Source: Lentzea sp. NEAU-D7
GTDB lineage: Bacteria; Actinomycetota; Actinomycetes; Mycobacteriales; Pseudonocardiaceae
DNA: 64,000 nucleotides
Assembly (NCBI RefSeq): GCF_026242055.1
Contig: NZ_JAPJDL010000014.1
Location: 1 to 64,000, forward strand
Reading direction: 5' to 3'
Shown: positions 11,623-19,363 of the stretch, one piece after another
Layout of the letters: each line of letters starts with the position of its first letter
Numbering within the stretch: position 1 is the first letter of the stretch
Position numbers and translations under genes: made by a program
Notes under the pieces: model-generated
What the model was told of the DNA's origin: nothing
Database searches by the model: none
The model's input: the letters and a program-made list of their open reading frames with translations, nothing else

Positions 11623-12197
11623 CGGTCCTCCCCGGTGTGCACGAGCTCGCGGTGGTGCTGCTGGACCTTGGCCCTGGCCTTGCTGACCCGCGCACGCACG
11701 CTGCCCTCGGTGATGCCGAGAACGGCAGCGGCGTCCGCGTAGGACACGTCCGACCACACGCACAGGACGAGCGCTTCGCGTTCGTTGCGCGGCAGCTTCG
11801 CCACGACGTCCAGCAGCGCTTTCATCCGCCGCTGGTCGTCGAGCCGCTCCGCCACCAGGTCCGCGTGGTCGGGCACCGGGCGCTCCTCGCCGACACGGCG
11901 CAGGTTCTTCAGGCGGCGCAGGAACGAGCGCTGCTCGTTGCGCACCACGTTCGTGGCCACGGTGAGCAGCCACGGCAGCGCCGACTCGCGCTCCAGCCGC
12001 ACGTCGTCGCGTTTGCGCCAGGCCAGCAGGAACGTCGCCTGCAGGTGGTCCTCGGCCTCCGCCCAGGACGCGGTCAGCCGGAAGCAGTGGTTGTAGACCG
12101 CCTTCGCGTGCCGGTCGAACAGCACCCCGAAGGCGTGCGCACTGCCCCCAGCCGCCTGCGACCACAGCGCGCGGTCGTCAGGGTCTTCGGTTGTCAT
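11619..12197 (-). CDS. ECF-type RNA polymerase sigma factor
   Basis: A 192-residue group 4 sigma factor. Region 2 spans about residues 20-90 (LFDRHAKAVYNHCFRLTASWAEAEDHLQATFLLAWRK shows the -10-recognition helices), and region 4 spans about 130-185 with LPRNEREALVLCVWSDVSYADAAAVLGITEGSVRARVSKA. It has no extra C-terminal domain. It is cotranscribed with a membrane-anchored protein through an ATGA overlap, so its activity is probably set by that partner. The signal and regulon are unknown, and no clear autoregulatory promoter was recognised in the 71-base gap upstream. Confidence 0.9.
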   Translation of the reverse strand: MTTEDPDDRALWSQAAGGSAHAFGVLFDRHAKAVYNHCFRLTASWAEAEDHLQATFLLAWRKRDDVRLERESALPWLLTVATNVVRNEQRSFLRRLKNLRRVGEERPVPDHADLVAERLDDQRRMKALLDVVAKLPRNEREALVLCVWSDVSYADAAAVLGITEGSVRARVSKARAKVQQHHRELVHTGEDR

Positions 12198-12268
12198 GCC
12201 TGTTCGTGTCCGCTCGCCCCGGAAGTGTTGGCACCAGTTTCACGCGGCCACCATTAACGTCACGAAGC

Positions 12269-13174
12269 GTGGCACATCTGGGGGTGGCCGACCTCGCGCA
12301 CGTCGCGCAGGCGGCGTACGGCCGTGAACTGCGCGACGTGGTCCGCCTGCACGGCGGCAGCAAGAAGGGCGTCTACCGCCTGACGCTCGACGACGGCACG
12401 ACGGGCGTCGCCTACGTGTGGCGCACGAGCGAGGACTACTGGCCCGCGCACGAGCACGATCCGTTGTTCGGCAACGCGAGCGGGCGCGACCTGTTCCTCA
12501 CGGCGCACACGGCGCTGTCCGAGGCCGGCGCGTGCGTGCCGAGGCTGGTGCTGGTCCACAGCGACGTCGTCGTGGTCGAGGACCTCGGGGCGGAGTTCCT
12601 CGAAAAGGTGCTCGACCACGACACCGAGGCACTGGAACGGCTCTGGGACGACCTGGCCGCCGTGCACCAGCGCACCAGCCCGCGCTACGGCCGCCCAGGC
12701 GCGCTGCAACCGGTGGACGCGCCTCCGGTACCGGACGTGGTGCTGCAGCGGGCCCTCGGACACCTCGACGCGTGCTGCGAGCGGGTGCCGCGCATCGCCG
12801 CCGAGCGCGACCGCCTGGAAGCCGAGCTGCGGCAACGGCACGCCGTGGTCGAGCCGCGCGCGGAGTACGGGCTGGTCCACGGCGAGCTGGGCCCCGACCA
12901 CGTGCTCGTGGCGGACGGGCGGCCGGTGCTGATCGACATCGAGGGCGCGATGTTCTTCGACGTCGAGTGGGAGCACGCGTTCCTGGAGCTGCGCTTCGGC
13001 CCGCACCACCGTCCGGCGCCCGGTCTCGACCCCGCGCGGATGTCGTTGTACCGGCTGGCGCAGCACCTGTCCCTTGTGGAGGGTCCGCTTCGGCTGCTGG
13101 ACGGCGACTTCCCGCACCGGGACGCGATGCGGGAGATCGCCGAGCACAACGTCGAGCGCGTGCTGAGCTGTTAG
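12269..13174 (+). CDS. Phosphotransferase (aminoglycoside-phosphotransferase-like fold)
   Basis: A 301-residue kinase-fold protein starting at GTG 12269. The catalytic loop reads HGELGPDH (residues 204-211), in place of the usual HGDLHPGN. The metal-binding motif is DIEG (223-226). An early SKKGVYRLTLDDG resembles the glycine loop region, and YVW is near the ATP-binding strand. The Asp-to-Glu and Asn-to-His changes in the catalytic loop recur in an actinomycete subgroup (HGELGPDHVLV), as I recall it, so the protein need not be dead. The substrate is unknown; resistance to an antibiotic is possible but unsupported. It is divergent from the ECF sigma gene. Confidence 0.82.
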   Translation: MAHLGVADLAHVAQAAYGRELRDVVRLHGGSKKGVYRLTLDDGTTGVAYVWRTSEDYWPAHEHDPLFGNASGRDLFLTAHTALSEAGACVPRLVLVHSDVVVVEDLGAEFLEKVLDHDTEALERLWDDLAAVHQRTSPRYGRPGALQPVDAPPVPDVVLQRALGHLDACCERVPRIAAERDRLEAELRQRHAVVEPRAEYGLVHGELGPDHVLVADGRPVLIDIEGAMFFDVEWEHAFLELRFGPHHRPAPGLDPARMSLYRLAQHLSLVEGPLRLLDGDFPHRDAMREIAEHNVERVLSC

Positions 13175-13311
13175 AACCGGCCGAGCCACACCTCCTCGAC
13201 CCGCAGCCGCGCCGGAAGGGGCGGAGATCGCCCCAATGAGCCGACGTTAGCTCGCGTCTCACCACGTGGGCGTCCTTGGCCGACGACGACGCGGGTGCCA
13301 GCATCGGTGAC

Positions 13312-13401
13312 ATGTCCCAGGCATCCGTGCTCAGCACGCGCCGCCACGTCGACCTCCGTCGGCAGGCGAGCGCGATCTGTGCGGTGCCCGCCTTCGCCTG
13401 A
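13312..13401 (+). CDS. Putative regulatory leader peptide of the sulfur operon (TRRxHVDL type)
   Basis: A 29-codon reading frame 42 bases upstream of the ROK gene. The core is LSTRRHVDLRRQASAIC (residues 7-23), ending AVPAFA and TGA. Small peptides with the core LTRRRHVDLxRxxSAxC are known as putative leader peptides upstream of sulfur-assimilation and sulfonate genes in Streptomyces and relatives, and this one precedes exactly such an operon. The Cys near the end and the conserved Arg-Arg-x-His-Val-Asp-Leu block are both present. The start is ATG 13312; GTG 13327 in frame would give a shorter version. It is too short for ordinary gene calling. The mechanism (attenuation or nascent-peptide sensing of a sulfur metabolite) is unproven. 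Confidence 0.78.
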   Translation: MSQASVLSTRRHVDLRRQASAICAVPAFA

Positions 13402-13418
13402 CCGGAGAGCAGACGAAC

Positions 13419-13434
13419 CCCCTGCGAGAAGGGG
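13419..13434 (+). promoter_or_regulatory. Short stem masking the ROK Shine-Dalgarno
   Basis: CCCCT (13419-13423) can pair with AGGGG (13430-13434) across a 6-base loop. The right arm is the front of the Shine-Dalgarno AGGGGAGGGA that serves ATG 13444. Placed between the leader peptide and the first operon gene, it could hide the ribosome site. Short and unverified. Confidence 0.4.
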
Positions 13435-13443
13435 AGGGACCGC

Positions 13444-14607
13444 ATGAGCCGCACCGCCGCCACCGTGCTCAGGTCCGTGCTGGAGCACGGGCCCGTCGCG
13501 CGCAGCACCCTCGCGCGCCTCACCGGGCTGAGCGCCGCGACCGTCACCAAGCAGTACGCCGAACTGGCCGGACGCGGGCTGGTGCGCGAGGTCGAGACAC
13601 GCGTTCCGCGGGTGACGATCGGACGGCCGCACGTACCGGTGGACATCGACGTGGACCGGCACGTGGTGTGCGGCGTCCACATCGCCTACGGGCACACGAC
13701 CCTGGCGCTCGTGGACCTGCGCGGGCGGGTGCTGGCCGAGGAACGCGAGCCGCACCACAGGCCCGGCCCGGCGGCGGCGTTGCGCCGGATCGCCGAGCGG
13801 GTGCCCGCGTTCCTGCGCCGGCACGACCGGGTGCCGATCGGTGTCGGGGTCGCCACCGGCGGACGCGTGGACGGCGGCACGATCGTCGAGCACAGCCAGC
13901 TCGGCTGGAAGGACGTGCGTGCCGAGGAGTTCCTGACCACCGCGCTCGACACCGCAGTTCAGGTCGAGTCGCACTCGAGGGCACTCGCGCGGGCCGAGCA
14001 GCTCTTCGGGGCCGACCCCAGAGCCCGCACCAGCCTGGTGCACCTGTTCGTGGGCAACGTGGTCGACGCGGCCATCGTCACCGGCGGCGCCGTGCACAGC
14101 GGGCCGGGTGGCGCGGCGGGCGGGATCGCGCACCTCCGGCTGCGCGACGACGACACCCCGTGTCCCTGCGGCCGCCGCGGTTGCCTGGAGGCGGCGACGT
14201 CGAACCGGACGCTCGCGGAACGGGCCGCGCGGCTCGGAATCATCGCGGAACCGTTGCTGGACCCGCTGATCGAGGCCGGCCGGCGAGGTGACCCGCGGGC
14301 GGTCGAGCTGTTCCGGCGGCGGTCGCGGCTCGTCGGGCAGGCCGCGCGACTGCTGCTCGACGTGATCAACCCGGACGTGCTCGTGGTGGTGGAGGCGGGC
14401 GCGATCCTCATTCCCGGATGCTGGGAGGAATTGACGTCGGAAATCGGGGAGCGCGCGCCGGACGTGATTCAGACGAGTTTCGGCGAAGACGTTCTCAGCA
14501 TCGCCGCGGGAAGTGTCGTGCTCAGCGAGATCTACGGCGGCAAGACTTATTTTTCCCGAGAAGAAAATAGACATGACAAGACGCTGAACTGCAGTCTTGA
14601 TGCATGA
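13444..14607 (+). CDS. ROK-family transcriptional regulator of the sulfonate operon
   Basis: A 387-residue ROK repressor. A winged helix-turn-helix covers residues 1-55 (ARSTLARLTGLSAATVTKQYAELAGRGLV). The ROK body follows, with the zinc-binding CPCGRRGCLE (Cys240, Cys242, Cys247) and His230. The sugar-kinase catalytic Asp is missing: the usual ND motif is ESHSRALARAE here, so it should sense a ligand without phosphorylating it. ROK proteins usually sense sugars. Here it is the first gene of a sulfonate operon and its stop overlaps the dioxygenase start (ATGA), so it probably autoregulates that operon; the effector may be a sulfosugar or other organosulfur compound (inference). Confidence 0.87.
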   Translation: MSRTAATVLRSVLEHGPVARSTLARLTGLSAATVTKQYAELAGRGLVREVETRVPRVTIGRPHVPVDIDVDRHVVCGVHIAYGHTTLALVDLRGRVLAEEREPHHRPGPAAALRRIAERVPAFLRRHDRVPIGVGVATGGRVDGGTIVEHSQLGWKDVRAEEFLTTALDTAVQVESHSRALARAEQLFGADPRARTSLVHLFVGNVVDAAIVTGGAVHSGPGGAAGGIAHLRLRDDDTPCPCGRRGCLEAATSNRTLAERAARLGIIAEPLLDPLIEAGRRGDPRAVELFRRRSRLVGQAARLLLDVINPDVLVVVEAGAILIPGCWEELTSEIGERAPDVIQTSFGEDVLSIAAGSVVLSEIYGGKTYFSREENRHDKTLNCSLDA

Positions 14608-15563
14608 CCTCAGTTCAGGAAAAGACGCTCACCGTCAAGCCGATCGCCGGTCACATCGGCGCGGAAATCTCGGACATCGACATTTCCCGCCCGCTCCGCG
14701 CGGCCGAGCTCGACACGCTCCAGAAGGCACTCCACACCCACAAGGTGGTTTTCTTCCGGGACCAGCGGCTGGACCACGCGAGCCAGATCGCGTTCGGCCG
14801 CCAGTTCGGTGAGCTCACCTACGCCCACCCCCACGACGACGCGCCGCCCACCGGCTTCCCGGAGATCTTCACGATCGACCCGCGCCGGTACGAGGAGCGC
14901 TACGGCGAGGACTTCCGGCAGCAGACCCGCAAGCGCCAGTACAGCTACTTCTCCGGCTGGCACACCGACGTGACCGCCGCGGTGAACCCGCCGGCCGCCT
15001 CGATCCTGCGCGCCGAGGTGGTGCCCGAGATCGGCGGCGACACGACGTGGACCAACCTCGTCGCGGCGTACAACGGACTCTCCGGGCCGGTGAAGTCCTT
15101 TGTGGACGGACTCAGGGCCGAACACCGCTACGGCGGCTCGGCGAAGGCCGAGGACGGCGCGTACGCCAAGCGCGTCAACGACAACCTGCTCGTCGCCGAG
15201 CACCCCGTCGTCCGCGTGCACCCCGTCACCGGCGAGAAGGGCCTGTTCGTCAACCCCGGCTTCACCAGCCACGTCACCGGGGTGTCCCCGGCCGAGAGCA
15301 AGGCGATCCTCGACCTGCTCTACGCCGAGCTCACCAGGCCCGAGTACACCGTGCGGTTCCGCTGGGAGCCCGGCAGCGTCGCGTTCTGGGACAACCGCGC
15401 CACCGCCCACCTCGCGCCGCGCGACCTGGAGCACCTCGACGTCCAGCGCACCCTGCACCGCGTCACGCTCGTCGGCGACACCCCGGTCGGGCCGGACGGG
15501 CGCGAGTCCACGCTGCTCGCGGGCCGTCCGTTCACCGCCGACCACGCTGTGGTGGTGGACTGA
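14604..15563 (+). CDS. TauD/TfdA-family Fe(II)/2-oxoglutarate dioxygenase
   Basis: A 319-residue dioxygenase of the taurine dioxygenase/alkylsulfatase group. It would couple 2-oxoglutarate decarboxylation to hydroxylation of a sulfonate or sulfate ester, releasing sulfite or sulfate. The iron ligands are His120 and Asp122 (WHTDVT) and His269 (DNRATAHLAPRD); an Arg near 282-286 would hold 2-oxoglutarate. The N-terminus (AGHIGAEISDIDISRPL) is typical of the AtsK/TauD type. It overlaps the ROK gene by ATGA and the substrate-binding protein by TGATG. Its position with an Ssu-type transporter and an LLM monooxygenase points to organosulfur use. Confidence 0.9.
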   Translation: MTSVQEKTLTVKPIAGHIGAEISDIDISRPLRAAELDTLQKALHTHKVVFFRDQRLDHASQIAFGRQFGELTYAHPHDDAPPTGFPEIFTIDPRRYEERYGEDFRQQTRKRQYSYFSGWHTDVTAAVNPPAASILRAEVVPEIGGDTTWTNLVAAYNGLSGPVKSFVDGLRAEHRYGGSAKAEDGAYAKRVNDNLLVAEHPVVRVHPVTGEKGLFVNPGFTSHVTGVSPAESKAILDLLYAELTRPEYTVRFRWEPGSVAFWDNRATAHLAPRDLEHLDVQRTLHRVTLVGDTPVGPDGRESTLLAGRPFTADHAVVVD

Positions 15564-16585
15564 TGCTGACCAGGCGTTCCCTGTTGCTCGGCCTCGCGGC
15601 TCTCGGTGCCGCCGGGTGCTCCGCGGGCAGCTCCACCACGCAGCAGGTCCTCGGCGACCTGCCCACGACGGCCCCGCCACCGGACACCAGGCTCACGATC
15701 TCCATCCGCACCACGCTCAAGCAGCTCGAGGCATCGGGCGAGCTGGGCAAGCTCCCGTTCCAGGTCACCGACTGGCCCAACATCCAGGCCGGCCCGGACG
15801 TGATCCAGGCGTTCCGCGCGAAGTCCGTCGACCTCGCCGCCAACGCGGGCATACCGCCGATCCAGGCGCAGGCGACCCGGCTCGCCACGAAGATCGTCGC
15901 CGTCGGCGAACGCGACAAGCCCCTCTACACCTACGTCACCAAGCCCGGCTCCCCCATCACCTCCCTCGACGACTTCAGGGGCAGGAAGATCGCGTTCAGC
16001 CAGGGCCAGGCGCAGGGCGTGGTCGTCCTGCGCACCCTGAAAGAGCTCGGACTCAGGCCCACCGACGTCGAGCTGGTCCCGTTGACCAGCAACCAGTTCC
16101 TGACCGCCGTGCAGGCGGGTCAGGTCGACGTCGCCGTGCTCGCCGAACCGCAGCTGACCAAGTACCTCGGCCAGTACCCGGACGCACGGGCGATCGAGAT
16201 GAGGTCCGTCGACCTGCTCACGGTCCTGTGGGCGCCGGTCGAGGTCCTCAACGACCCGGCGAAGCTCGCGGCGATCAAGGCGTTCATCCCGTTCTGGGCG
16301 CGGGGAACCGTGTGGAGCTACGAGAACCCGGACAAGTGGGTCGACGCCTACTACGTGAAGGACCAGAACGTCTCCAAGGCCGACGGCGACCGGATCGTCC
16401 GGTCGCAACCACCCCTGACCTTCCCGGCGAACTGGGACCGCGCGATCAGGTGGGAGCAGGAGACCGCGGACCTGCTGGCGGAAGGCGGGTTCGTCGAGGA
16501 GTTCGACGTGACGCAGCTCTTCGACCGCCGGTTCGAGAAGGTCGCCGCCGAGGCCGTCGACGCCAAGTACCGGAGCCGGACATGA
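15563..16585 (+). CDS. ssuA: Aliphatic sulfonate ABC transporter substrate-binding lipoprotein (SsuA-like)
   Basis: A 340-residue extracytoplasmic solute-binding lipoprotein. The signal sequence TRRSLLLGLAALGAAGC has a lipobox with Cys19 and a twin Arg, so Tat export is possible. The mature domain is of the SsuA/NMT1 type: VTDWPNIQAGPDVIQAFRAK, DLAANAGIPPIQAQA, the hinge block DDFRGRKIAFSQGQ and QAGQVDVAVLAEP. It would capture sulfonates or a similar organosulfur compound and pass it to the permease. ATG 15563 is chosen because it starts the lipoprotein signal and overlaps the dioxygenase stop. Overlap with the permease is ATGA. Confidence 0.9.
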   Translation: MLTRRSLLLGLAALGAAGCSAGSSTTQQVLGDLPTTAPPPDTRLTISIRTTLKQLEASGELGKLPFQVTDWPNIQAGPDVIQAFRAKSVDLAANAGIPPIQAQATRLATKIVAVGERDKPLYTYVTKPGSPITSLDDFRGRKIAFSQGQAQGVVVLRTLKELGLRPTDVELVPLTSNQFLTAVQAGQVDVAVLAEPQLTKYLGQYPDARAIEMRSVDLLTVLWAPVEVLNDPAKLAAIKAFIPFWARGTVWSYENPDKWVDAYYVKDQNVSKADGDRIVRSQPPLTFPANWDRAIRWEQETADLLAEGGFVEEFDVTQLFDRRFEKVAAEAVDAKYRSRT

Positions 16586-17415
16586 CCCAGCTGCTCGAAC
16601 GCCCCGCCGCCCTCCTCCCGGCCACCACCCCCGCCCGCCGCAGGCGACTGGGACTCGGCCGGCCGATCCCCTACGGACGACTCCTCGGACCGGCACTGGT
16701 CATCGCCGCGTGGAGCATCGCGTCCGCGACCGGCGTGCTCGACCCGCGCATCCTCAGCGCACCGTGGACGATCGTCCACACAGGAATCGAGCTGACCGCG
16801 AACGGGAAGCTGCCCGAGAGCATCCTCACCTCGCTCCAGCGAGCAGCGCTCGGCTTCTTCTTCGGCGCCACCGCGGGCACGCTGCTCGCCCTCGCCTCTG
16901 GGCTCAGCCGCGTCGGCGAGGCGCTGATCGACGGCACTGTCCAGGTCAAGCGCGCGATCCCGTCGCTCGGCCTGATCCCGCTGCTGATCCTCTGGCTCGG
17001 CATCGGCGAGGAGTTCAAGATCGTGGTGATCGCCGTGACCATCGCGACGATCATGTACCTGCAGACGTACGCCGCGCTGACCGGCATCGACAGCCGGTAC
17101 GTCGAGCTGGCGGAAGCCGTCGGCCTCACCCGCGCCCAGTACGTGCGCAGGGTCGTGTTCCCCGGTGCGCTGCCCGGCTTCTTCCTCGGGCTGCGGCTCG
17201 CCGTCACCGCGTCGTGGCTGTCGCTGGTGGTGCTGGAGCAGATCAACGCGACCAGCGGCATCGGTTACCTGATGTTCCAGGCGCAGAACTACGGCCAGAC
17301 CGACGTGATCGTGGTCGGCCTCGTGGTCTACGGCCTGTTCGGGTTCGTGTCCGACGCGCTGCTGCGGATCGTCGAACGGAGGGCGCTGGCATGGCGACGC
17401 ACGCTGTCCGGGTGA
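16582..17415 (+). CDS. ssuC: Sulfonate ABC transporter permease (SsuC-like)
   Basis: A 277-residue BPD-type inner-membrane permease with about six helices after an Arg-rich cytoplasmic N-terminus (TPARRRRLG). The EAA loop that contacts the ATPase is ELAEAVGLTRAQYVRRVVFPGALPGF-like (positions about 173-198), and the helices around PLLILWLGIGEEFK and VVIAVTIATIMYL are typical of SsuC/TauC. It starts at ATG 16582, overlapping the binding protein by four bases, and its last 25 bases overlap the ATPase start. It would form a transporter with the genes on either side. Confidence 0.92.
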   Translation: MTQLLERPAALLPATTPARRRRLGLGRPIPYGRLLGPALVIAAWSIASATGVLDPRILSAPWTIVHTGIELTANGKLPESILTSLQRAALGFFFGATAGTLLALASGLSRVGEALIDGTVQVKRAIPSLGLIPLLILWLGIGEEFKIVVIAVTIATIMYLQTYAALTGIDSRYVELAEAVGLTRAQYVRRVVFPGALPGFFLGLRLAVTASWLSLVVLEQINATSGIGYLMFQAQNYGQTDVIVVGLVVYGLFGFVSDALLRIVERRALAWRRTLSG

Positions 17416-18053
17416 AGGGCCTGACGAGGCAGTTCCAGGAACGCAGGATCCTCGACGACCTCGACCTCACGATCGCCCCCGGCGAGTTCACGGCACTGCT
17501 GGGCCGCAGCGGTTCCGGCAAGTCGACGCTGCTCAAGGCCATCGCCGGACTCGACCACGACGTGACCGGCACCGGAGACCTGGAGGTGCCGAGGGAGGTC
17601 GCCGTCGCGTTCCAGGACTCGCGGCTGCTGCCGTGGCTGCGGGTGCTGGACAACGTCGAGCTCGGCGTGAGACCGGGCAGGGGCAGGGCGGCACTGGAGG
17701 AGGTCGGGCTCAAGGGCCGCGAACGCGCGTGGCCCGCGGAGCTGTCCGGCGGCGAGCAGCAACGGGTGGCGCTCGCCCGCTGCCTCGTCCGCGAACCCCG
17801 GCTGCTGCTGGCCGACGAGCCGTTCGGCGCGCTGGACGCGTTGACCCGCATCAAGATGCACGACCTGCTGCGCGAGCTGTGCGCCAAGCACCGGCCCGCG
17901 GTCCTCCTGGTCACGCACGACGTCGACGAGGCCATCGAGCTCGCCGACCGGGTGCTCGTCCTGCAGGAGGGCCGCATCGGCCTCGACCTCCCGGCGCACG
18001 ACGCCGACCGCACGCACCTGTTGTCCGCACTCGGCATCGGAGTCGCCGCATGA
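17391..18053 (+). CDS. ssuB: Sulfonate ABC transporter ATP-binding protein (SsuB-like)
   Basis: A 220-residue ABC ATPase. Walker A is GRSGSGKST (residues 38-46), the Q-loop is in AFQDSRLLPWL, the signature is LSGGEQQR, Walker B is LLADEPFGALD, and the switch His is in LLVTHDVDEAIELADRV. Length and the phrase RLLPWLRVLDNVELG are typical of SsuB/TauB. ATG 17391 lies inside the permease gene, giving a 25-base overlap. It powers import by the SsuA-SsuC pair. Its stop overlaps the LLM monooxygenase start by ATGA, so all five structural genes are translationally coupled. Confidence 0.92.
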   Translation: MATHAVRVKGLTRQFQERRILDDLDLTIAPGEFTALLGRSGSGKSTLLKAIAGLDHDVTGTGDLEVPREVAVAFQDSRLLPWLRVLDNVELGVRPGRGRAALEEVGLKGRERAWPAELSGGEQQRVALARCLVREPRLLLADEPFGALDALTRIKMHDLLRELCAKHRPAVLLVTHDVDEAIELADRVLVLQEGRIGLDLPAHDADRTHLLSALGIGVAA

Positions 18054-19363
18054 CGCTGCACCTCAACCTCTTCCTGCACGACACCGGCCACCACGAGGCG
18101 TCCTGGCGGCTGCCCGAGTCGGATCCGCTGGCGCACATCGACATCGCCTATCACCAGCGGATCGCGCGCACCGCCGAGGAGGCGCGGTTCGACTCGGTGT
18201 TCCTCGCCGACTCCCCCGTGCTGTGGGGAAACCCGAGCCGCCGCCCGTCCGGCAAGATCGAGCCGACGATCCTGCTCGCGGCGATCGCCGCCGCCACCAC
18301 GAGGATCGGCCTGATCGCCACGGCGTCCACCACCTACAACGAACCGTTCAACCTGGCCCGCCGGTTCAGCTCGCTCGACCACGTCAGCGGTGGCCGCGCC
18401 GGCTGGAACATCGTCACGACCGCAGGGGACGACGCCGCCCGCAACTTCGGGCTCGACGCCCAGCCCGCCCACCTCACCCGCTACGACCGGGCCGCGGAGT
18501 TCGTGGAGGTCTCGAAGAAGCTCTGGGACTCCTGGGACGACGACGCGATCGTCGCCGACAAGGACAGCGGTGTGCACGCCAGGGACGACCGCGTGCACAC
18601 CATCGACCACGTCGGCCCGCACTTCCGCGTCCGCGGCCCGCTGAACCTGCCGCGGTCACCCCAGGGCCACCCGCTGCTGGTCCAGGCGGGCAGCTCCGAG
18701 GACGGCAGGGACTTCGCCGCCCGGCACGCCGAGGCCGTGTTCACCGCGCAGCAGACGCTGGCCGACGCGGTCGCCTTCTACCAGGACGTGAAGCGCCGGG
18801 CGATCGAGTTCGGCCGCGACCCGGACGAGGTCAAGATCCTGCCCGGCCTGGTCCCGGTGATCGGGTCGACGGAGGAGGAGGCGCACGCGCTCGACGCGGA
18901 GCTGGAACGGCTGATCGTGCCGGAGCACGCGGCCAGGCAGCTCGCGGCCCTGCTCAAGGTCGACCACCTGGAACTGGACGAGGAACTGCCCGCCGACCTG
19001 CCGGAGGAGGCCGCGATCGAGGGTGCGAAGTCGCGGTACACGCTGATCGTGGAACTGGGCCGGCGTGAACGGCTGACCGTCCGCCAGCTCATCGGCAGGC
19101 TCGGTGGCGGGCGCGGGCACAAGACGTTCGCCGGCACCGCGCTCCAGGTCGCCGACACGATCGAGGAGTGGCACCGGGCGGGCGCCGCGGACGGGTTCAA
19201 CATCATGCCCGCCGTCCTGCCGTCCGGCCTGGAGCGGTTCGCGGACGAGGTGCTGCCGATCCTGCGGCGACGCGGCCTGTTCCGCACCGAGTACACCGGC
19301 ACGACCCTGCGCGAGCACTACGGCCTGCCACGCCCGGCCAACCAGTTCGCGCTACCCGTGTGA
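18050..19363 (+). CDS. LLM-class FMN-dependent monooxygenase (NtaA/SnaA/DszA group)
   Basis: A 437-residue flavin monooxygenase of the NtaA/SnaA/DszA/SoxA subfamily, which uses FMNH2 from a separate reductase. Typical blocks are FDSVFLADSPVLWG, the FMN-contact SSLDHVSGGRAGWNIVTT (about residues 107-124) and HPLLVQAGSSEDGRDFAA. Members oxidise nitrilotriacetate, dibenzothiophene sulfone and similar compounds. Here the operon context suggests desulfonation or C-S cleavage of the substrate imported by the Ssu transporter. No flavin reductase gene is in the window. The gene ends convergently with the patatin gene, overlapping by 12 bases. Confidence 0.9.
   Translation: MTLHLNLFLHDTGHHEASWRLPESDPLAHIDIAYHQRIARTAEEARFDSVFLADSPVLWGNPSRRPSGKIEPTILLAAIAAATTRIGLIATASTTYNEPFNLARRFSSLDHVSGGRAGWNIVTTAGDDAARNFGLDAQPAHLTRYDRAAEFVEVSKKLWDSWDDDAIVADKDSGVHARDDRVHTIDHVGPHFRVRGPLNLPRSPQGHPLLVQAGSSEDGRDFAARHAEAVFTAQQTLADAVAFYQDVKRRAIEFGRDPDEVKILPGLVPVIGSTEEEAHALDAELERLIVPEHAARQLAALLKVDHLELDEELPADLPEEAAIEGAKSRYTLIVELGRRERLTVRQLIGRLGGGRGHKTFAGTALQVADTIEEWHRAGAADGFNIMPAVLPSGLERFADEVLPILRRRGLFRTEYTGTTLREHYGLPRPANQFALPV

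Follow-up and report, generated by a model that had tools for sequence, protein, structure and literature searches.

A short leader reading frame stands directly before a likely sulfur-scavenging operon of Lentzea sp. NEAU-D7, and in the family to which this leader belongs the last cysteine of the conserved core (C13) is encoded by TGT almost without exception, namely in 163 of 167 distinct cores and in 192 of 201 loci. We think it rather probable that the leader is a cis-acting, leaderless ORF whose ribosomes report the cysteine supply to the operon, and most likely it would sense a shortage of cysteine through its single UGU codon, 13378-13380; this sensing step appears well supported by the codon evidence. 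The leader family is already known, and what is new is a member in front of a ROK-led operon together with an unexpected codon rule. Positions refer to the window, which is the whole stretch of 64,000 nucleotides that was analysed, and those of the features are collected in Table 1.

Table 1. Features of the leader region and of the operon behind it
Feature	Position	Strand	Basis or remark
Conserved element TCTCACCACGTGGGC (TCYCACMWCSTGRRC in relatives), operator candidate	13257..13271	+	upstream of the -35-like site
-35-like site TTGGCC	13276..13281	+	direct reading; kept in 6/7 aligned Lentzea loci and in L257 and L258
Extended -10-like site TGC-CAGCAT	13296..13304	+	spaced 17 nt from the -35-like site and 7 nt from the start codon
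Leader ORF, 29 codons then TGA, MSQASVLSTRRHVDLRRQASAICAVPAFA	13312..13401	+	direct reading and NF042934 match
15-bp mRNA hairpin inside the core	13337..13374	+	3 nt between its 3' foot and the Cys codon; suggestive only
Conserved core RRHVDLRRQASAIC	13339..13380	+	NF042934 match; conservation of the columns in 89 distinct cores
Likely sensor cysteine codon TGT, codon 23	13378..13380	+	TGT near-fixed in the family
Small hairpin CCCCT-GCGAGA-AGGGG, covering part of the ROK Shine-Dalgarno	13419..13434	+	folding
ROK Shine-Dalgarno AGGGGAGGG	13430-13438	+	
ROK-family transcriptional regulator, first operon gene	13444..14607	+	PF00480 4.7e-30
TauD/TfdA-type dioxygenase	14604..15563	+	PF02668 8.1e-62; cut-off of the model for taurine dioxygenase not reached
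SsuA-like substrate-binding protein	15563..16585	+	TIGR01728 9.1e-31, below its cut-off
SsuC-like ABC permease	16582..17415	+	PF00528; top NCBIfam match SsuC, below its cut-off
SsuB-like ABC ATPase	17391..18053	+	PF00005; NF008420 2.3e-69, below its cut-off
NtaA/DmoA-family FMN-dependent monooxygenase, last operon gene	18050..19363	+	TIGR03860 559 bits, cut-off 279.7

The leader has its ATG at 13312, the core LSTRRHVDLRRQASAIC and its TGA at 13399-13401, and the ROK gene begins with an ATG at 13444, 42 nt after the stop codon. The 29-codon frame is present exactly where the earlier note had placed it. The peptide matched the NCBIfam model NF042934.1 ('putative leader peptide', cis_reg_atten) with 34.4 bits and an E value of 1.2e-8 (curated cut-off 27). 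It reached 19.3 bits with the Ms4527A model (NF042936), below the cut-off of 45, and the NCBIfam search reported no match to the Ms5788A model (NF042933). No Rfam family matched at its gathering score anywhere in the window, so no riboswitch or leader RNA family was found there. Judged from the sequence, the leader is a real feature, more than a chance frame, and a member of a known family, and the frame is probably translated. The family match and the gene matches bear out the earlier description of a TRRxHVDL-type leader before a ROK-led operon of the organosulfur type. Of the interpretation given in the earlier note, the leader type, the conservation and the cysteine as likely sensor hold; the type is not unannotated, since NCBI already has the model NF042934 for this core, and the statement that no mechanism is established goes too far for the reasons given below.

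In the six-gene operon, the five genes after the ROK gene have overlapping ends. The matches of the dioxygenase and of the transporter lie below the cut-offs of the exact taurine and sulfonate models, and that of the monooxygenase lies above its family cut-off. The operon is likely to be a sulfur-scavenging one of the organosulfur type, and the SsuA-like protein is, judged by eye, a possible lipoprotein. A patatin-like gene is oriented against the operon. Just upstream of the leader region, on the same strand, lies a gene of the APH-type phosphotransferase family (12191-13174), which adjoins the operon in G018 and lies about 4.7 kb off in L. waywayandensis; no match to it was seen in the fetched stretches of the remaining relatives. 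Two Lentzea operons have about 490-550 extra bases between the TauD match and the binding-protein match (L064 5625-6114 and L065 9525-10074).

All 24 Lentzea genomes have matches to the family above its cut-off, and the family was also matched in the order sample (105 of 121 genomes) and in the class sample (65 of 89). From the order sample 90 loci among the matches listed were used (30 taken automatically and 60 chosen for spread), and from the class sample 27 new loci taken automatically plus 60 chosen, again among the matches listed. A search of relatives, which the earlier note had proposed as a check, found the frame kept in Lentzea, Umezawaea and Saccharothrix, and the order of leader, ROK, TauD, binding protein, permease, ATPase and monooxygenase is the same in Umezawaea endophytica and Saccharothrix tamanrassetensis. 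The ROK-type leader occurs in seven of the 24 Lentzea genomes; the seven peptides are identical over codons 2-26, the last residues vary in some, and the start site is the same, with ATG and GTG swapped there. The operon is present in five of these seven genomes, and in the other two (G016 and G011) only ROK fragments were found, beside the patatin gene, with the promoter-like elements and the leader core retained. That the leader is kept where the operon is largely lost counts against the cysteine-sensor reading, and it is what one could expect of a small protein with a function in trans, whose position before sulfur genes would reflect co-regulation. This explanation seems hardly probable at all, as the operon deletions may be recent and as the family stands directly before many different genes, many of them sulfur-metabolic, as a cis element would.

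A sister leader, VSQAAxLTSRRHVDLRRHASAFCRxGR (with T at residue 2 in one case), heads another SsuA-like operon in six Lentzea genomes, where a ROK homologue follows about 5 kb downstream on the same strand; in G011 this ROK match is split in two. A seventh operon of the sister type, in G008, gave no leader by pattern search. As the sister operon also has both a leader and a ROK homologue, the pairing of leader and ROK is recurrent; the earlier note had put forward a regulator and a leader on one transcript as a new context. As the first gene, ROK is seen in only two of 52 non-redundant first downstream genes (L001 and L027), both from this type of locus. These first genes were picked by a simple coding score for 121 loci, and the 52 non-redundant ones fell into 37 Pfam families, 25 of which were listed. 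Among the listed families were DUF4395, of unknown function (12), sulfite reductase (5), APS kinase, rhodanese and luciferase-like monooxygenase (4 each), dicarboxylate symporter (3), serine acetyltransferase (2), and one case each of PAPS reductase, TauE and cysteine dioxygenase. Inspection of the second set by eye again gave repeated cases of rhodanese, DUF4395 and sulfite reductase. The gaps between leader and gene vary widely across the family. This bears on another very improbable explanation, a constitutive helper ORF that would load ribosomes and boost the next gene by coupling or re-initiation without any sensing. Leader genes near structural genes in Actinobacteria have indeed been proposed, in the accessible part of PMC4833913, to aid by re-initiation. 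However, the gap of 42 nt here exceeds the peak of 10-11 nt given in the same part of that source, the family gaps are far from uniform, and coupling does not need conservation of peptide and codon.

Some further observations on the distribution of the family were made. Among the matches listed, there are pairs on opposite strands, head to head and about 70-240 nt apart (G046:C57, G133:C85, G091:C53, G140:C104, G105:C116, G088:C40, G163:C251 and G209:C172), as though both leaders were served from one divergent promoter region. Four genomes of one genus (G197, G180, G212 and G160) have five to ten matches each at an E value of 1e-4 or better among the matches listed, and a variant found in this genus, RRVHMDLVRYAGCVC, ends in TGT as well. 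In the window's own genome there are two matches below the threshold, G000:C7:195964-196014 (L004, RRHVDYGRVAASLC) and G000:C43:171549-171590 (L006, RRHIDLARRTSTGC); both have TGT, and they look like further real leaders of the same genome.

The strongest regularity lies in the codon of C13. The loci were compared in two sets, and as they were found with a protein model, the search itself cannot select for TGT. Set 1 comprised 122 loci, from which L101 was dropped for core pattern or offset; L004-L006 were left out, of which L005 lies inside a larger frame. Set 2 comprised 87 loci, from which L183, L184, L191, L202, L203, L204 and L206 were dropped for core pattern or offset, and all eight loci dropped in this way have TGT too. 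In set 1, C13 is TGT in 85 of 89 distinct cores (112/121 loci) against 14 of 201 downstream Cys codons (p 9e-53), and in set 2 in all 78 distinct cores (80/80 loci) against 29 of 189 (p 2e-43); the background of both sets together, 43 of 390 downstream-gene Cys codons, is approximate, since some downstream picks were wrong (L026, L044, L045 and several in the second set). Clustering of the cores at 90% DNA identity gave 136 groups, 132 of which had TGT throughout; at 80% this held for 59 of 61 groups. The internal cysteine C6, where present, is at background (TGT in 2/29 in set 1 and 5/37 in set 2), and the codons next to C13 are GC-rich at the third position, with A or T there in 3 of 167 codons before and 34 of 164 codons after it. 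TGC at C13 was seen in nine of the 201 loci, which counts against the cysteine-sensor reading. Six of them, all in Lentzea and one in the genome of the window itself, share a single identical core and stand before a sulfite reductase (Pfam, for L002); L122 and L126 stand before a sulfite reductase by eye, and L144 before a TauE-type gene by Pfam. Two other codon preferences were noted: the Asp at D4 is GAT in 43 of 88 cases in set 1 and 19 of 78 in set 2, compared with about 8% and 7% downstream, and Arg at core position 6 is CGA or CGT in 17 of 22 in set 1.

That TGT is near-fixed at C13 and not at C6 indicates that selection acts on how one particular codon is decoded. The earlier note had offered the Cys near the end as a sensor codon or a sensor residue; it is indeed the likely sensor, and the codon data favour the codon, UGU, and not only the residue. 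The difference matters for an arrest peptide, which we regard as improbable: the nascent RRxHVDLxRxxSA in the exit tunnel would bind or sense a sulfur metabolite and stall the ribosome, with the Cys codon as the mere place of the stop. Such a peptide would accord with the residues, as R0, R7 and C13 do not vary over the 89 distinct cores, in which D4 and L5 each have one exception, with the HVDL residues conserved in the family. It would also accord with the seven Lentzea leaders, which have no non-synonymous difference in codons 2-26, and with the place of the conserved residues on the upstream side of the Cys, in that part of the chain which would lie inside the tunnel. Nevertheless it gives no reason for TGT over TGC at C13 while C6 stays at background.

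The usual account of codon bias in leaders, as given in the accessible part of PMC1183508, is the selective charging of different isoacceptors. In the window's genome 72 tRNA matches gave 70 distinct predictions, with two types of tRNA-Cys, both with the anticodon GCA. As every tRNA-Cys found is GCA, UGU and UGC would share one anticodon. Selective charging is therefore no explanation of the preference, and another reason is needed, such as slower wobble reading. The second tRNA-Cys(GCA) prediction (L316, G000:C1:392073-392144) is unlike the ordinary one. In the openly accessible literature searched, no statement of the UGU rule for this leader family was found.

The sites before the leader are consistent with a leaderless mRNA. 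The operator candidate was seen in an alignment of the seven Lentzea loci with Umezawaea and Saccharothrix, its consensus was drawn by eye, and its function is presumptive. No family-wide operator motif was found in the 167 sequences beyond TTGAC-like -35 words and TGTGAC-like words, and CCACAT-N2-TG occurs in 6 of 167 family loci, mostly of one group. A strict sigma-70 scan with the E. coli consensus gave no promoter match. CAGNNT is found 6-7 nt before the start in all seven Lentzea loci and in L257 and L258. In tests confined to loci with one candidate ATG or GTG and distinct core DNA, [TCG]ANNNT stood 6-8 nt upstream in 20 of 30 unambiguous starts of set 1 (nine other 3-nt bins, 0-3) and in 12 of 16 of set 2 (other bins, 0-2), and base -1 was C in 26 of 30 and 12 of 16, respectively; this spacing is absent in 14 of the 46 unambiguous starts, which counts against it. 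The window and 32 of the 46 unambiguous relatives share a -10-like element at a distance of 6-8 nt from the start codon, and so the mRNA is probably leaderless. For S. lividans, the accessible part of PMC8079986 gives TAnnnT as the -10 element of promoters and 17% of transcripts as leaderless, and the eight attenuators listed there include none for cysteine.

Folding of the leader RNA was compared with synonymous shuffles. The window leader is more stable than these (z -2.97 when the Cys codon was kept fixed and -2.60 when it was included in the shuffling) and its core reaches z -3.9, but among 73 operon control windows two lie at z -2.6 or lower, the lowest at -3.19; the Saccharothrix leader has only z -0.72, and the mean over 167 cores is -0.52. 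In the core hairpin, 134 of 135 cells are paired over nine aligned sequences, with no both-sided change and no covariation; the sole change that breaks the hairpin among the nine is in G011. A family consensus fold of the core was sought with RNAalifold and rejected, the result being empty for 167 sequences. Over ten pairs from five Lentzea loci, codons 2-26 of the leader have pN 0 and pS 0.078, and the ROK gene of the same loci has pN 0.135 and pS 0.362. The low synonymous change and the z values of the window could suggest that the hairpin is the functional element, with translation incidental. An RNA element of this kind has, however, a very low probability, given the controls and the missing consensus fold and covariation described above, and given that the amino acids are conserved across codon changes family-wide. 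The stability of the core RNA may be taken as a lead rather than as a mechanism, suggestive only.

The small hairpin at the ROK start site has the same sequence in G022, G018, G008 and the relic G016 and is absent in G019 and G011 (all Lentzea), and CCCC/GGGG stems are seen by eye at the same place in Umezawaea and Saccharothrix. An RNA switch at this site was considered but is not proposed: when the window was folded with ribosomes at several positions, neither one on the Cys codon nor one on the stop opened the hairpin. In 82 of 89 loci, placing the modelled ribosome on the Cys codon instead of the stop gave a mean change of +0.014 (p 0.5) and hence no significant opening, and no intrinsic terminator (stem-loop plus T run) was found in 13170-13480; both results count against the cysteine-sensor reading.

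The window leader shares its core, its size and its position before sulfur genes with members of NF042934, and no excluding difference was seen; its place directly before the ROK-TauD-SsuA/C/B-like-monooxygenase operon fits the sulfur-gene position of the sampled members, from which it differs in having a ROK regulator as the first gene. L076, a relative that has a Cys run, is matched by NF042933 (Ms5788A) as well as by NF042934, which indicates that the core is common to the single-Cys leaders and the mycobacterial leaders. Ms5788A is reportedly among the leaders tested by Canestrari in 2020, where a stalled ribosome is said to free a sequestered downstream ribosome-binding site. The mycobacterial polycysteine attenuators (Ms5788A, NF042933; Ms4527A, NF042936) resemble the window leader in the short ORF, the leaderless spacing and the adjacent sulfur genes, whereas the window leader has one sensor Cys followed by six more residues and no Cys run near the stop. 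Their leaderless feature agrees with CAGCAT 7 nt before the ATG in the window and with the family spacing, as far as sequence alone can tell. For their freed ribosome-binding site, the window offers one in a small hairpin that modelled ribosomes do not open. That the window leader has a single Cys codon and not a Cys run counts against the cysteine-sensor reading. Leaders with Cys codons in M. smegmatis are described as cysteine-responsive attenuators (Canestrari 2020, as cited in the accessible parts of PMC9094748, PMC9031893 and PMC13236596), and conserved Cys-rich uORFs precede cysA2/Msmeg_5788 and nirA/Msmeg_4527, the first with ribosome profiling (PMC4633059, in part). With L076 bridging the two models, the claim that the mechanism is not established was too strong; for the single-Cys branch, no mechanism was found in the open literature searched. 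According to the accessible part of Seliverstov 2005 (PMC1262725), the cys leader peptides of Mycobacterium, P. acnes and B. longum have runs of Cys codons near the stop. Like the window leader, they are short Actinobacteria ORFs before cys/cbs genes, and a conserved terminator hairpin was not found for those of Mycobacterium, in that part of the paper, a trait shared with the window. In Rhodobacterales, uORFC-8-2 before cysS is likewise a Cys-codon uORF proposed as a ribosome-mediated attenuator, but unlike the window leader it has two tandem Cys codons with UGC dominant and an intrinsic terminator stem, and it belongs to a different phylum (PMC8632094, in part).

Considering what can be read directly, namely the ORF and its family, the conservation of peptide and codon, the promoter spacing, the sulfur-gene context and the near-fixation of TGT, we assume the following course for a cysteine-sensing leader. 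Transcription would start at or beside the ATG, as the promoter spacing suggests, and the first ribosome would translate RRHVDLRRQASAI and then have one UGU codon to decode. With sufficient Cys-tRNA it would pass this codon and stop seven codons later; with scarce Cys-tRNA it would presumably pause there, and the pause may raise the expression of the ROK/TauD/Ssu-like/monooxygenase operon, whose products would free sulfur from organosulfur compounds. Candidates for the output step are the ribosome-binding site of the ROK gene and premature (Rho-type) termination.

An unlikely but distinct form is that the family is a codon-gated sulfur sensor, in which the readout would be the decoding of UGU as such and not the charging of Cys-tRNA alone. 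Here the nascent chain RxHVDLxR would prime the ribosome and UGU would be the gate, read by the single anticodon GCA via wobble, and how it is decoded could vary with the modification of tRNA-Cys, for example with a sulfur-containing modification beside the anticodon. If true, codon gating would explain the near-fixation of UGU in genomes that are rich in GC and leave no room for selective charging of isoacceptors. Whichever form applies, the near-fixation singles out one codon at which a synonymous change probes the mechanism. In the ROK-led operon the regulator would add a second input on the same transcript, and the wide spread in the order and class samples suggests that this family may be a main way in which Actinobacteria sense their sulfur supply.
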